Shown here piece after piece: positions 7,661 to 23,636 of a stretch of 64,000 nucleotides of DNA (position 1 is its first letter; every line of letters starts with the position of its first letter). The DNA lies in NCBI RefSeq assembly GCF_900103255.1, contig NZ_FMWS01000014.1, positions 1 to 64,000 on the forward strand, in the 5' to 3' direction. The notes under the pieces were generated by a model. It searched no databases and had not been told where the DNA came from. It saw only the letters and a list, made by a program, of their open reading frames with translations. The translations under genes were made by a program, and so were the position numbers. This DNA is from Gilliamella bombi. GTDB taxonomy: Bacteria > Pseudomonadota > Gammaproteobacteria > Enterobacterales > Orbaceae.

Positions 7661-8116
7661 ATGAAAAAAGTGATCTTCTATTTACTTGAAAACCAAACAG
7701 AAGCCGACGAGTCTGGCGTGCTTTTTTACGAAAAACTAGCATGCAAAAAAATAGTTGAAGCATGGCACGCCAATCAGCGCGTGCAAGTTGCTTGTCAAGA
7801 TCAGGGTCAAGCAGAACGAATAGACGAGTACCTATGGCAACTCGAAACCGACAATTTTGTTCCGCATAATTTGGCTGGTGAAGGCATGAAAGGGGGATCA
7901 CCTGTTGAAATTAGCTGGCCACAAAAACGTAGCAGCGGCACACGTCAGCTACTTATTAATTTACAAGAACAATTTCCTGAATTTGCAGGTGTTTATCGTG
8001 ATATTATCGATTTTGTGCCAGTGGATGAGCAGCTAAAGTCATTAGCAAGGAAACGGTACAAGTTATATAAAGAGGCAGGATTTAATCTTAAAACGATTTC
8101 AATTAATTGTGAATAA
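7661..8116 (+). CDS. holC: DNA polymerase III chi subunit HolC
   Basis: HolC links the clamp loader to SSB through the psi subunit. The 151-residue protein begins KKVIFYLLENQ and has the family pattern: ACKKIVEAWHANQRVQVACQDQ, then IDEYLWQL, then FVPHNLAGE. E. coli HolC is 147 residues. It is transcribed with pepA. Confidence 0.93.
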   Translation: MKKVIFYLLENQTEADESGVLFYEKLACKKIVEAWHANQRVQVACQDQGQAERIDEYLWQLETDNFVPHNLAGEGMKGGSPVEISWPQKRSSGTRQLLINLQEQFPEFAGVYRDIIDFVPVDEQLKSLARKRYKLYKEAGFNLKTISINCE

Positions 8117-8637: not shown

Positions 8638-10845
8638 ATGAGTTATCAAGTTCTGGCACGCAAATGGCGACCAAAATCATTTTCTGAGGTTGTGGGGCAG
8701 CAACATGTCCTTAAAATTTTGTCTAATGCACTTTCGCTAGGGCGAGTTCATCATGCTTATTTGTTTTCAGGCACTCGAGGAGTAGGTAAAACGTCAATTG
8801 CGCGTTTGTTAGCAAAAGGGCTGAATTGCGAAACAGGCATTACTGCTACACCATGTGGAGTTTGTGATAATTGTCGTGATATTGAACAAGGTCGTTTTGT
8901 TGATTTACTTGAAATTGATGCCGCATCTCGTACCAAGGTCGAAGACACTCGTGAAATACTTGATAACATCCAATATTTACCAACTAAAGGGCGCTTTAAG
9001 GTTTATTTGATTGATGAAGTGCATATGTTATCGCGCAGTAGCTTTAATGCACTTCTTAAAACCCTAGAGGAGCCACCTGAGCATGTTAAGTTTTTATTGG
9101 CAACTACAGATCCGCAAAAATTACCTATAACTATTTTATCACGTTGTTTGCATTTACATTTAAATGTATTAGATACAACATTAATTGGCCAGCAACTTGA
9201 ACATATTTTAAAATTAGAGCAAATCAGCAGCGATCCGAAAGCGATTGGGTTATTAGCTAAAGCAGCTAATGGTAGTATGCGTGATGCGCTGAGTTTAACC
9301 GATCAAGCGATTGCTCTTGGTAACGGTAAGGTCGATGCAGAATCAGTGTCGGTAATGCTTGGTACACTTGATAAGTCGGTTCCTTTTGCAATTGTTGAAG
9401 CATTACATAATAGTGATGGTAATGCCTTAATGCAACAAATTGAAGCAGCTGCTATGCAGGGCGCTGATTTGGATAATCTGTTAGCCGAAACCATTACTTT
9501 ATTGCATCAAATTGCGTTATTACAAGTAGTGCCAACTGCTTTGGGTGATTATATTGATAATGAAGAGCGCATACGTTTTTTAGCACAATATATGGCACCT
9601 AACGATGTGCAGTTGTTTTATCAAATTTTGCTAATGGGTCGTAAAGAGCTTTCTTTTTCGCCTGATAAAAAAATTGGTGTCGAGATGAGTTTTTTACGCG
9701 CTTTAGCCTTTATGCCAAAGGTGGTTGATGCTGTTACACCACCAGTTATGGCTAGTTCGGCATCTGTTCAAGGCAATAAGCAGACTCAAACTCAAAAGCA
9801 AACTAAAGAACCGCCTAATACCCAATCGCAATCACAAGCAGTAATGCATGCGAATGTATCAAGGCAAGCAGAAGCTAATAATCAGGCTGTAAATCAAACT
9901 AAAAAACAATCTCGAATTCAGCAATCTGATCCTATACTTGCAACAGTGAGCCAGCCAGTTAATCATACCGAACAGAATACACCACAATCGGTGATAAGTT
10001 CGTCATTAACAAATGAGCAAAGTCAGCACAACGACTTAAACGATTTAACCGTTTTGTCTTCAAAAACAGCGTCAACATCTAAAGCCAAACCAGCAACGGC
10101 GGATCTAACGATTCCTGATGGTGTGTCGTCGGTGACTAAAAGCATTTTAGAAATGCGTATGCAGTTGTTAAAAGAGGAACAATATCCAAAAAAGTCTGAA
10201 TCGGTTGATGTAATTCAACCAAAAAATTTAGTAATAAATAAATCACTAACACGAATTAAACAGAGCGTTGTGCCAGTAAACGATATCGATAACAACGATA
10301 ACGGCAATAGTAAAGAAGATATTACCGCTGAAAATTATCAATGGCAAGCCAGTGGTCTAACTGCAATGAAGGAAGAGTTGGTGGTCGATACTAAGGCTTT
10401 TCGTGAGTCACTAAATGGTGATAAAACTCCTGAAATGATTAAGAAATTAATTACCGAAATGGCGCAAAAAGATGCCTGGTGTGCCGAGATCGAGCAATTA
10501 GATTTACCGCCGTTAATTAAGCAAATCGTAGCTAATTCAGCTTTTGAACAAGTAGATAGTGGAACGATTGTGTTGCATTTGCGTTCAACCGTTAAGCATT
10601 TGATTAATTCGATATCGAATGTGATAAAGATAAAAAAAGCGCTATGCAAACATCGTAACCAAGAGCTTGATGTAGATATTATTATTGATGATGTAAATTA
10701 TAAAACACCAGTTGAAATGCGCGAAGAGTTATACCAAGAAAAACTTGCGCAGGCGAAGATAGCCATTGCCGAAGATTCAAAAGTGGCTACAATTTGTCGA
10801 TATTTTGATGCTAAGATTGATGAATCCAGTATTCGTCCTGTATAA
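8638..10845 (+). CDS. dnaX: DNA polymerase III tau subunit (and gamma by -1 frameshift) DnaX
   Basis: This is the clamp-loader ATPase. I chose the ATG at 8638 because MSYQVLARKWRP is the conserved N-terminus; an in-frame ATG lies three codons upstream at 8629. Walker A GTRGVGKTS is near residue 45, the zinc cluster includes CGVCDNC, and the DEVHML and SRC motifs are present. The full product (tau) is 735 residues because of a long Gln/Asn/Ser-rich linker (about 375-500), longer than the 643 of E. coli. A slippery heptamer at 10188-10194, with an upstream Shine-Dalgarno-like AGAGGA and a downstream stem, would yield a 520-residue gamma. The tau-specific part past the slip site is 215 residues, against 212 in E. 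coli. Confidence 0.96.
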   Translation: MSYQVLARKWRPKSFSEVVGQQHVLKILSNALSLGRVHHAYLFSGTRGVGKTSIARLLAKGLNCETGITATPCGVCDNCRDIEQGRFVDLLEIDAASRTKVEDTREILDNIQYLPTKGRFKVYLIDEVHMLSRSSFNALLKTLEEPPEHVKFLLATTDPQKLPITILSRCLHLHLNVLDTTLIGQQLEHILKLEQISSDPKAIGLLAKAANGSMRDALSLTDQAIALGNGKVDAESVSVMLGTLDKSVPFAIVEALHNSDGNALMQQIEAAAMQGADLDNLLAETITLLHQIALLQVVPTALGDYIDNEERIRFLAQYMAPNDVQLFYQILLMGRKELSFSPDKKIGVEMSFLRALAFMPKVVDAVTPPVMASSASVQGNKQTQTQKQTKEPPNTQSQSQAVMHANVSRQAEANNQAVNQTKKQSRIQQSDPILATVSQPVNHTEQNTPQSVISSSLTNEQSQHNDLNDLTVLSSKTASTSKAKPATADLTIPDGVSSVTKSILEMRMQLLKEEQYPKKSESVDVIQPKNLVINKSLTRIKQSVVPVNDIDNNDNGNSKEDITAENYQWQASGLTAMKEELVVDTKAFRESLNGDKTPEMIKKLITEMAQKDAWCAEIEQLDLPPLIKQIVANSAFEQVDSGTIVLHLRSTVKHLINSISNVIKIKKALCKHRNQELDVDIIIDDVNYKTPVEMREELYQEKLAQAKIAIAEDSKVATICRYFDAKIDESSIRPV
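10173..10220 (+). promoter_or_regulatory. programmed -1 ribosomal frameshift module in dnaX
   Basis: All three stimulatory parts known from E. coli dnaX are present. The anti-Shine-Dalgarno-pairing AGAGGA is at 10173-10178 and ends ten bases before the slippery A-AAA-AAG (10188-10194). After slipping back one base, translation reads AAA AAA GTC then TGA at 10197-10199. A six-bp stem, GGTTGA (10203-10208) with TCAACC (10215-10220), starts eight bases after the heptamer. The zero frame around it (KKSES) matches the E. coli KKSEP context. Confidence 0.85.
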
Positions 10846-10876: not shown

Positions 10877-11215
10877 ATGTTTTCAGGTGGAAAAGGTGGT
10901 TTGGGCAATTTAATGAAACAAGCCCAACAAATGCAAGCTAAAATGCAACAAGCACAAGAGGAGATCGCTAAATTAGAAGTTACTGGCGAATCAGGTGCTG
11001 GTTTAGTTAAAGTCACCATTAATGGTACTCATAGTTGTAAGCGCGTTGAAATTGATCCATCACTTATGGCTGATGATGATAAAGAGATGTTAGAAGATCT
11101 TATTGCTGCGGCTTATAATGATGCGGCTCGCCGTTTAGATGAAGCACAAAAAGAAAGAATGGCTCAGGTTACTGGTGGCATGCAATTACCACCAGGTTTT
11201 AAAATGCCGTTTTAA
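10877..11215 (+). CDS. ybaB: YbaB/EbfC nucleoid-associated protein
   Basis: This 112-residue DNA-binding protein has the family N-terminus [26 protein letters not shown] and C-terminus [11 protein letters not shown]. YbaB dimers bind DNA with tweezer-like helices. It follows dnaX by 31 bases as in E. coli, but recR, normally the next gene, is missing; a terminator and then ruvA follow. Confidence 0.95.
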
Positions 11216-11253
11216 GTTAATGCATTAATTCAGTTAGTTAAACTTTTTGCATT

Positions 11254-11290
11254 GCCGACTTTGAGTACCAAGTCGGCGATATTTTTTTGT
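11254..11290 (+). terminator. intrinsic terminator after ybaB
   Basis: GCCGACTT (11254-11261) pairs with AAGTCGGC (11270-11277) around an eight-base loop and is followed within a few bases by a run of T. Confidence 0.85.
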
Positions 11291-11396
11291 TATTGCCTGT
11301 CTATTTATACAGTTTTTCTTTATTATTTTTTTGCTATCGGGTAAACTACACCTTATTATTTGCTTATTTGTTATGCTTTATTATTAAGGATATATT

Positions 11397-12005
11397 GTGA
11401 TTGGTCGTTTACGTGGTACCATTATTGAAAAGCAACCACCTAAAGTCTTGATAGAAGTCGGTGGCATCGGTTACGATGTGTTTATGCCGATGACCTGTTT
11501 TTATGAATTACCCGAAAATGGACGAGAGGTCATTGTGTTAACACATTTTTCCGTGCGTGAAGATGCCCAAATCCTATATGGTTTTAATCAAGAACAAGAG
11601 CGTGAATTGTTTCGTGAACTTATTAAAGTTAATGGAGTTGGTCCTAAGTTGGCGTTAGCCATTTTATCGGGCATGTCAGCAGCACAATTTATTAGTGCTG
11701 TTGAACAAGGTGAAATTAAAACGCTAGTTAAATTGCCAGGCGTAGGTAATAAAACTGCACAACGATTAATTGTTGAGATGAAAGATCGCCTCAAACATTT
11801 TGGTGAGCAATCATCAAATGTTAGCTTGGTTTCTGATGTAGATAGTGTTCAAAAGTCAGCTAATCAAATTGAAAGCGAGGCTGTTTCAGCTTTAATTGCA
11901 TTAGGTTATAAACCACAAGAAGCTAGCCGTATTATTAATAAAGTAATTAATCCTGATATGGATTGCGAAACGCTGATTCGTGAAGCCTTAAAATCAGCAT
12001 TGTAA
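11397..12005 (+). CDS. ruvA: Holliday junction branch-migration protein RuvA
   Basis: RuvA binds four-way junctions and loads RuvB. The start is GTG ([15 protein letters not shown]). The OB-fold N-terminus, the acidic-pin region, two HhH motifs ([14 protein letters not shown] near 80, [20 protein letters not shown] near 114) and the C-terminal RuvB-binding domain are all present in 202 residues. ruvB follows after 13 bases; ruvC is not adjacent. Confidence 0.96.
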
Positions 12006-12018
12006 ATAGAGATTTATT

Positions 12019-13023
12019 ATGATTGAAGCGGATCGTTTGATTGCACCACAAGCGCAAAAGGAAGAAGAGTCATTAGATCGTGCAATTCGTCCAAAATATT
12101 TAGACGAATACATTGGTCAACCGCAAGTTCGTGAGCAAATGAAGATATTTATTCAAGCCGCTAAACAACGCAGTGATGCACTTGATCATGTGCTTATTTT
12201 TGGTCCTCCAGGGCTTGGAAAAACTACATTGGCTAATATTGTCGCAAACGAAATGAATGTAAATTTACGCACTACATCAGGCCCTGTTTTAGAAAAAGCC
12301 GGCGATTTAGCCGCTATGCTAACTAATCTAGAGCCAAACGATGTGCTGTTTATTGATGAGATTCATCGGCTTTCGCCTGTAGTTGAAGAAATTTTATATC
12401 CAGCTATGGAAGATTATCAATTAGATATTATGATTGGTGAAGGACCTGCTGCACGTTCAATCAAAATCGATCTTCCCCCCTTTACATTAATAGGTGCAAC
12501 AACTCGTGCAGGGTCGTTAACTTCGCCATTGCGGGATCGTTTTGGTATTGTACAAAGACTTGAGTTTTATCGGGTTGAGGATTTGGAATATATTGTTAGC
12601 CGTAGCGCTAAATTTTTGGGCATGGATCTGTCAGACGAAGGTGCGCATTTAATTGCCCAACGTTCACGCGGTACCCCCCGAATTGCAAATCGACTTTTGC
12701 GCCGAGTGCGCGATTATGCCGATGTAAAATCAAAAGGTGTTATCGACAAAAAAATTGCTATTCAAGCGCTAGATATGCTTGATGTTGATAATGAAGGTTT
12801 TGATTATATGGATCGCAAATTATTACTGGCCATTATAGAAAAATTTATGGGTGGCCCTGTTGGTTTAGATAACATTGCCGCGGCAATTGGTGAAGAGCGT
12901 GAAACGATCGAAGATGTACTTGAACCTTTTTTAATTCAGCAAGGTTATATTCAAAGAACGCCACGTGGTAGAATTGCAACACCACATGCTTATCGTCATT
13001 TTGGGATAATTCAGGATAATTGA
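12019..13023 (+). CDS. ruvB: Holliday junction helicase motor RuvB
   Basis: This 334-residue AAA+ hexameric motor starts [24 protein letters not shown]. Walker [12 protein letters not shown] is near residue 62, Walker [10 protein letters not shown] near 112, sensor 1 [18 protein letters not shown] near 155, and the winged-helix C-terminal domain ([16 protein letters not shown]) is intact. It is co-transcribed with ruvA and ends at a strong terminator. Confidence 0.97.
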
Positions 13024-23560: not shown

Positions 23561-23636
23561 GGGTTGTTAGCTCAGTCGGTAGAGCAGTTGACTCTTAATC
23601 AATTGGTCGCGGGTTCGATCCCCTCACAACCCACCA
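23561..23636 (+). tRNA. tRNA-Lys (CTT)
   Basis: The 76-nt cloverleaf has acceptor GGGTTGT/ACAACCC, D stem GCTC/GAGC, anticodon stem GTTGA/TCAAT around loop CTCTTAA (anticodon CTT), T loop TTCGATC and encoded CCA. The T stem GCGGG/CCCTC has one C-T mismatch. It marks the left edge of the accessory stretch containing IS remnants. Confidence 0.92.

Follow-up and report, generated by a model that had tools for sequence, protein, structure and literature searches.

The window, a stretch of 64,000 nucleotides from a Gilliamella bombi genome of 2.62 Mb in 132 contigs, contains on its forward strand an open reading frame (8638-10842) that was identified as dnaX by NCBIfam NF005942 (824.5 bits, cut-off 613), and Pfam placed on its product the clamp-loader domains and tau domain V. 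The gamma and tau lengths given here were counted from ATG 8638; an alternative start, ATG 8629, would add 3 residues. Further frames lie upstream (7661-8116) and downstream (10877-13023). The upstream one is probably holC-like and those downstream ybaB-, ruvA- and ruvB-like; in E. coli, recR follows ybaB. The features considered were the following.

8638..10842, + strand: dnaX zero frame, read as tau of 735 aa, with the stop codon at 10843-10845 (open reading frame, NCBIfam NF005942, Pfam domains)
10173..10178, + strand: Shine-Dalgarno (SD)-like AGAGGA, with 10 nt between its AGAGG and the heptamer; the genome has the 16S anti-SD CCTCC
10188..10194, + strand: slippery heptamer A_AAA_AAG in the dnaX zero frame, the same in 43/43 family genes
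10197..10199, + strand: −1 frame TGA, one codon past the shift; TGA or TAA there in 43/43 family genes
10203..10208, + strand: hairpin 5′ arm GGTTGA (stem search, family comparison)
10215..10220, + strand: hairpin 3′ arm TCAACC (stem search, family comparison)
8638..10199, + strand: gamma as predicted, zero frame up to 10194 followed by GTC TGA in −1; 520 aa with a C-terminal Val
10411..10833, + strand: tau domain V (alpha-binding), not in gamma (PF12170, residues 592-732, 127.4 bits)
23561..23636, + strand: tRNA-Lys(CUU), cognate for the slip-site AAG (ARAGORN), with a C50-U64 mismatch in the T-stem

The zero frame from ATG 8638 runs CCA (10186-88) AAA (89-91) AAG (92-94) TCT GAA over positions 10186-10200, and the −1 frame entered at the heptamer reads AAA AAA GTC (10194-96) TGA (10197-99). 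The original prediction had put A-AAA-AAG in the correct zero frame, a TGA after the single −1 codon GTC, and a 6-bp stem from eight bases downstream, and each of these was found on direct reading; the hairpin (10203-10220) has 6 bp and a 6-base loop, starts 8 bases past the heptamer and was assigned −6.7 kcal/mol. The SD-like element was also present where expected, but the ten-base spacing claimed for it is true of AGAGG, while AGAGGA lies 9 bases from the heptamer, so that the claim was off by one. The 10-base spacing of AGAGG equals that of AGGGAG in Citrobacter (L028), and the anti-SD CCTCC is carried at the 16S 3′ end of the window's genome. The lengths foreseen for the two products agreed with ours, with 519 residues plus Val giving 520 aa for gamma, and 735 aa for tau.

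Bare AAAAAAG is not enriched in the window (42 occurrences against 45 expected). The pattern joining SD, spacer, heptamer and stop (RRGRGG-10-AAAAAAG-NNTRA) gave a single match in the 2.6-Mb genome, at dnaX, and its reversed control gave 0 matches in the whole genome. At 684 other codon positions in the window's dnaX, as good a stem was found in 1.2% and as good an SD in 3.1% of cases, and the two together at none. When compared with synonymous recoding, the hairpin was only just significant (p 0.045), and the single stem of the window is modest evidence on its own. By these counts the dnaX signal is not due to chance, and the main weight of the case, as we judge it, is in the comparative evidence.

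The genomes searched were 35 of the window's genus and 44 of its family (Orbaceae), the window's own counted in, and dnaX was recovered from 43 of the 44; none came from G030, which is 67% complete. Alignment, tree and column counts used 42 rows of the 43, as L115 has a broken upstream frame, and the tree for counting changes was built without the slip-site region. Also left out were a partial second dnaX in G022 (L126 and part of L127) and the repeats L127 and L128 of L088 and L098. In all 43 family genes, A_AAA_AAG was in frame and followed at the same offset by a −1 stop (TGA or TAA). The codon before KK encodes eight residue types in the 42 aligned genes (Pro, Lys, Ala, Ser, Thr, Leu, Val and Arg). 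On the tree its amino acid changed 15 times or more, yet its third base never, being A throughout; the Ser/Pro codon after KK changed amino acid four times, with the third base always T. The third base is invariant in just two of the 241 columns that hold at least four amino acids, one of which is the codon before KK. Among 15 columns invariant for Lys, 13 mix AAA and AAG; the exceptions are the two heptamer columns, each with one codon throughout, and one of these is fixed for AAG though AAG makes up 25% of Lys codons. In the 10/42 genes with Lys, not Glu, after Ser, TAA replaces TGA as the −1 stop. The slip site itself falls between codons 437 and 529 in family members and near codon 430 in E. 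coli-like genes, which bears out the lengthened linker of the original prediction. Because third bases, AAG and the −1 stop are fixed while residues change, these constraints are, as read in the alignment, marks of selection on a −1 frame event. The conservation pattern is supported as one that would be expected of a functional −1 frameshift signal and not of a protein-level motif, and with slip and stop bases fixed in 43/43 genes among varying neighbours, the proposal of a −1 frameshift module gained strength.

The stimulatory elements were more variable. SD strength is kept within the genus while the SD codon alternates between Glu and Gly (AAAGAGGAA, AAAGGGGAA, AAAGGAGAA), and the SD falls in the best 5% of its own gene in 35/42 family genes, being clearly weak in L117, L120, L121, L123 and L125. 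For the hairpin the corresponding count was 34/42, and a hairpin of the GGTTG/CAACC type was readable in 32/43 (our own count), with varying loop lengths and arm changes that preserve pairing. Its inner helix is 87.8% paired, against at most 47% in slid controls, and double-changed cells numbered 23 versus 12.5 in shuffles, a value above all 500 shuffles, which ignore kinship. When the same residues were recoded synonymously for comparison, 25/43 hairpins reached p≤0.05 and 18/43 did not. The uninterrupted-stem measure is ill suited to the interrupted hairpins of Enterobacteriaceae, giving 0 for most, and folding energies apply there. In the clade L110/L112/L113/L115, which carries a one-codon insertion, no comparable hairpin was found, and heptamer, stop and SD are kept. 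Of the two losses in relatives that the original prediction had named as counting against it, that of the heptamer was thus seen in none of the 43 genes, whereas that of the stem occurred in these four. Judged across the family, heptamer and stop are absolute, and SD and hairpin are common yet replaceable, because the former pair is found in 43/43 genes, against weak SDs and a hairpin-less clade.

The −1 frameshift of dnaX is a textbook mechanism. We consider it very probable that the window's dnaX undergoes a functional −1 programmed ribosomal frameshift of the E. coli kind, with gamma of 520 aa and tau of 735 aa as products. From the signal, its position and the selection on it, which are read in sequence, we infer the slipping, its efficiency and both proteins. 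The 16S anti-SD would pair with AGAGG, and the hairpin would impede the ribosome while tRNA-Lys occupies AAA AAG; tRNA-Lys(UUU) would then re-pair one base back, on AAA AAA. The slipped ribosome would add one Val and stop, yielding gamma without the alpha-binding domain V, and unslipped ribosomes would yield tau. For E. coli dnaX, the available text of PMC5009743 states that roughly half of the ribosomes change frame and terminate after one more codon, and that of PMC6787027 gives an efficiency of 70-80%. By analogy, we would expect frameshifting as in E. coli in kind, not necessarily in amount. Against the frameshift reading stand the hairpin-less clade, the weak SDs in five genes and the 18/43 hairpins with p>0.05, as well as an Rfam DnaX score below cut-off and the presence of tRNA-Lys(CUU), which should lower slipping on AAG.

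In the window's genome, 42 tRNA genes were found, among them two tRNA-Lys(UUU) beside tRNA-Lys(CUU), which the original prediction had not mentioned. The latter was detected in 42/44 family genomes, 37 by exact pattern and five with one or more changes; the two genomes without a match are 67% and 59% complete. Going by the copies read, tRNA-Lys(CUU) is under selection, because 30 of 36 are identical over 76 bases. All 36 carry a pyrimidine mismatch at T-stem 50-64 (C-U, with U-C in G011), a position that is paired in eight CUU tRNAs of named Enterobacterales and in the UUU tRNAs of the window's genome. A link between loss of the CUU tRNA and loss of the hairpin was considered and dropped: G001, G009, G010, G011 and G028 do have the CUU gene, altered at a base that the pattern covers. 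Further CUU-negative labels, each given by a single pattern, may likewise include genes that were overlooked. In the available text of PMC5009743 and PMC6787027, slipping in E. coli is put down to the wobble on AAG of its one lysine isoacceptor; Tsuchihashi and Brown (1992) are among the references. The window's genome differs in having a CUU isoacceptor beside tRNA-Lys(UUU); a single tRNA-Lys(UUU) belongs to the explanation for E. coli, not to the signal.

One variant of the preferred reading differs from it in efficiency: a real signal would slip weakly, because tRNA-Lys(CUU) reads AAG, and gamma would be made in small amounts, at a level set by the ratio of the tRNAs. It agrees with the occurrence of the CUU tRNA in 42/44 family genomes and with the single Lys isoacceptor of E. 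coli, whose weak pairing to AAG is regarded as promoting the slip (PMC6787027 and PMC5009743, as far as available). However, the signal is maintained despite the CUU tRNA; other CUU-positive genomes also keep it (10/10 with Enterobacteriaceae-like dnaX, two of them with A_AAA_AAA), and the T-stem mismatch may weaken the CUU tRNA. We regard weak slipping as possible, if somewhat improbable. tRNA-Lys(CUU) would pair C34-G with AAG and would mispair on AAA, so that only AAG read by the UUU tRNA should slip well, and because the CUU tRNA is present and has these pairing properties, the UUU:CUU ratio likely limits gamma. That gamma:tau is actually set by competition between the two tRNAs seems to us doubtful. 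Under such competition, UUU on AAG would permit the slip and CUU would block it, the CUU tRNA being kept weak by its fixed mismatch (U50-C64 in one genome, otherwise C50-U64), which would let the slip survive; if true, the dnaX frameshift would sense the ratio of charged tRNAs.

The CUU pattern matched 99 of 397 genomes of the order (≥95% complete), 38 of the 99 being in the window's family, and dnaX was read in all 61 CUU-positive genomes outside the family and in 19 of 298 CUU-negative ones. Group labels (Enterobacteriaceae-like f17, Pasteurellaceae-like f8, Aeromonadaceae-near f23) denote the best named dnaX match. Enterobacteriaceae-like dnaX had the module in 10/10 CUU-positive and 4/4 CUU-negative genomes. 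Of 49 named genomes searched for the CUU pattern, a set without L056, 11 were positive, eight of these Enterobacterales; seven of the eight combine A_AAA_AAG with a stop after one codon (L005, L006, L032, L033, L038, L050 and L052), and in dnaX of the CUU-positive Acerihabitans (L008) no such combination was found. The module analysis of named loci was run without eight Vibrio-type loci (L013, L014, L016, L017, L021, L022, L048 and L055) and L126. In 14/21 Pasteurellaceae-like dnaX, from genomes with and without CUU, the run is A10 and each off-frame has a stop within 17 nt; no such slip site was found in the dnaX examined of the Aeromonadaceae-near group (15), f14 (2) and f20 (1). Because the module occurs with and without CUU and the groups differ, the CUU tRNA does not exclude the ribosomal signal, nor does its absence predict the signal. 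Two CUU-positive, Ewingella-like loci, L230 (G279) and L232 (G237), have A_AAA_AAA at the dnaX slip site in place of A_AAA_AAG; Ewingella L018, which had no CUU pattern match, has A_AAA_AAA as well.

Transcriptional slippage at the A run could also make a short form, as in Thermus, while the ribosome reads normally. According to the available text of PMC5009743, Thermus uses RNA polymerase slippage and has two lysine tRNAs, which are offered as a possible reason for the different mechanism; that of PMC3711429 describes transcriptional slippage sites as often being homopolymers of eight or longer. Runs of nine As occur in L117 and L118 and of eight in L093-L095 and L114, and the A10 of Pasteurellaceae-like dnaX, with off-frame stops on both sides, points the same way. 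On the other hand, just six As are present in 37/43 family genes, the window's among them, a +1 stop, which this mechanism also needs, lies within 15 nt in 2/43 as against the −1 stop in 43/43, and SD and hairpin would be without a role in polymerase slipping. The Thermus-type combination of an A run of 8-9 or more with near stops in both off-frames is not the pattern of the family. The prevailing A6, the fixed −1 stop and the lack of a fixed +1 stop indicate ribosomal, not transcriptional, slippage; the latter was rejected as the main mechanism on A-run length and missing +1 stops, and we hold it very unlikely. L117 and L118, which have nine As and also a good hairpin, could use both slippage routes. 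In the Pasteurellaceae-like set (L245-L251, L253-L258, L261-L263, L266, L275, L277, L280 and L281), where SD and stem are mostly weak, a Thermus-like switch from ribosomal to transcriptional slippage is likely. Within this set, the dnaX frame of G346 (L277) stops at codon 461, and the part compared is 100% identical to Aggregatibacter kilianii.

It is highly improbable that there is no frameshift and that KKSE is conserved for the protein, with the bases following from codon bias. KK is indeed invariant (42/42) and followed later by E/K/D, and AAA is the commoner Lys codon, but the constraint falls on third bases and the minority codon AAG, not on residues: 15 residue changes came with 0 third-base changes adjoining KK, and the 13 other invariant-Lys columns are mixed. 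Both codon bias and a protein motif are contradicted by this. Gamma produced from tau by proteolysis, as the available text of PMC5009743 describes for Caulobacter crescentus, is barely credible here, since a leftover signal would decay, whereas this one has persisted across wide divergence and changes in the length of the surrounding linker.

The ribosomal −1 frameshift thus preferred resembles that of E. coli dnaX (RF00382) in the zero-frame A_AAA_AAG, the SD-like element ending 10 nt upstream, the hairpin 6-8 nt downstream, the −1 stop one codon on, a gamma (here predicted) without the alpha-binding domain, and a homologous site just before KKSE. Unlike in E. coli, the window's hairpin is GGTTGA/TCAACC, weaker than the CCGGC/GCCGG-type arms, the slip site lies at the later codon positions given above, and an AAG-cognate tRNA-Lys is present. 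With Thermus thermophilus dnaX it shares two DnaX lengths per gene (predicted here) and two lysine tRNAs (PMC5009743, available text), and it differs in having six As, not nine, in a +1 stop that is not kept, and in the presence of SD and hairpin. Recoding in dnaX is likewise common to the two-frame dnaX of a GeneTack cluster (PMC3711429, available text), from which it differs in that the zero frame would give tau, and recoding gamma. The Rfam DnaX model RF00382 exceeded its gathering cut-off of 35 bits in 0/44 family genomes (best score within dnaX 24.3, in G042) and gave no match at the window site, the sole match in the window, mir-1264, being noise; as a detector for the family it was set aside, since it misses at its cut-off. 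Our literature search recognised nothing on dnaX of Orbaceae or Gilliamella or on CUU tRNA competition there, which is weak evidence, as subscription papers were mostly outside it. The E. coli dnaX frameshift would, on strong comparative evidence, be extended to Orbaceae, a family unnamed in the available text of the literature searched, with the recoding bases constrained while the surrounding protein drifts. The full ribosomal signal and a cognate CUU tRNA coexist throughout this family, and the old explanation, that A_AAA_AAG slips because E. coli is without an AAG-cognate lysine tRNA, is now testable.

Other dnaX arrangements were also noted. In group f3 of the order, 22 of 25 dnaX examined (L285-L287, L290, L291 and L293-L309) have a zero frame of 362-389 codons that ends soon past 9-10 As, and the long frame (490-769 codons, several clipped by the stretch end) goes on in −1. 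There, tau would need slippage, and f3 apparently has a split dnaX type family-wide; the available text of PMC3711429 describes this type for other genera. In L115 (G029), dnaX is split around 1690 into frames of 411 and 304 aa at an A8 tract, where L110, L112 and L113 have A9; a real indel, an assembly error or a split tolerated through slippage are possibilities. The second, partial dnaX of G022 (L126 and L127:670-2450) is without about codons 140-346 and is the same in two contigs; in one of them it lies 9 kb from the intact gene, and its SD, heptamer and hairpin are still there.
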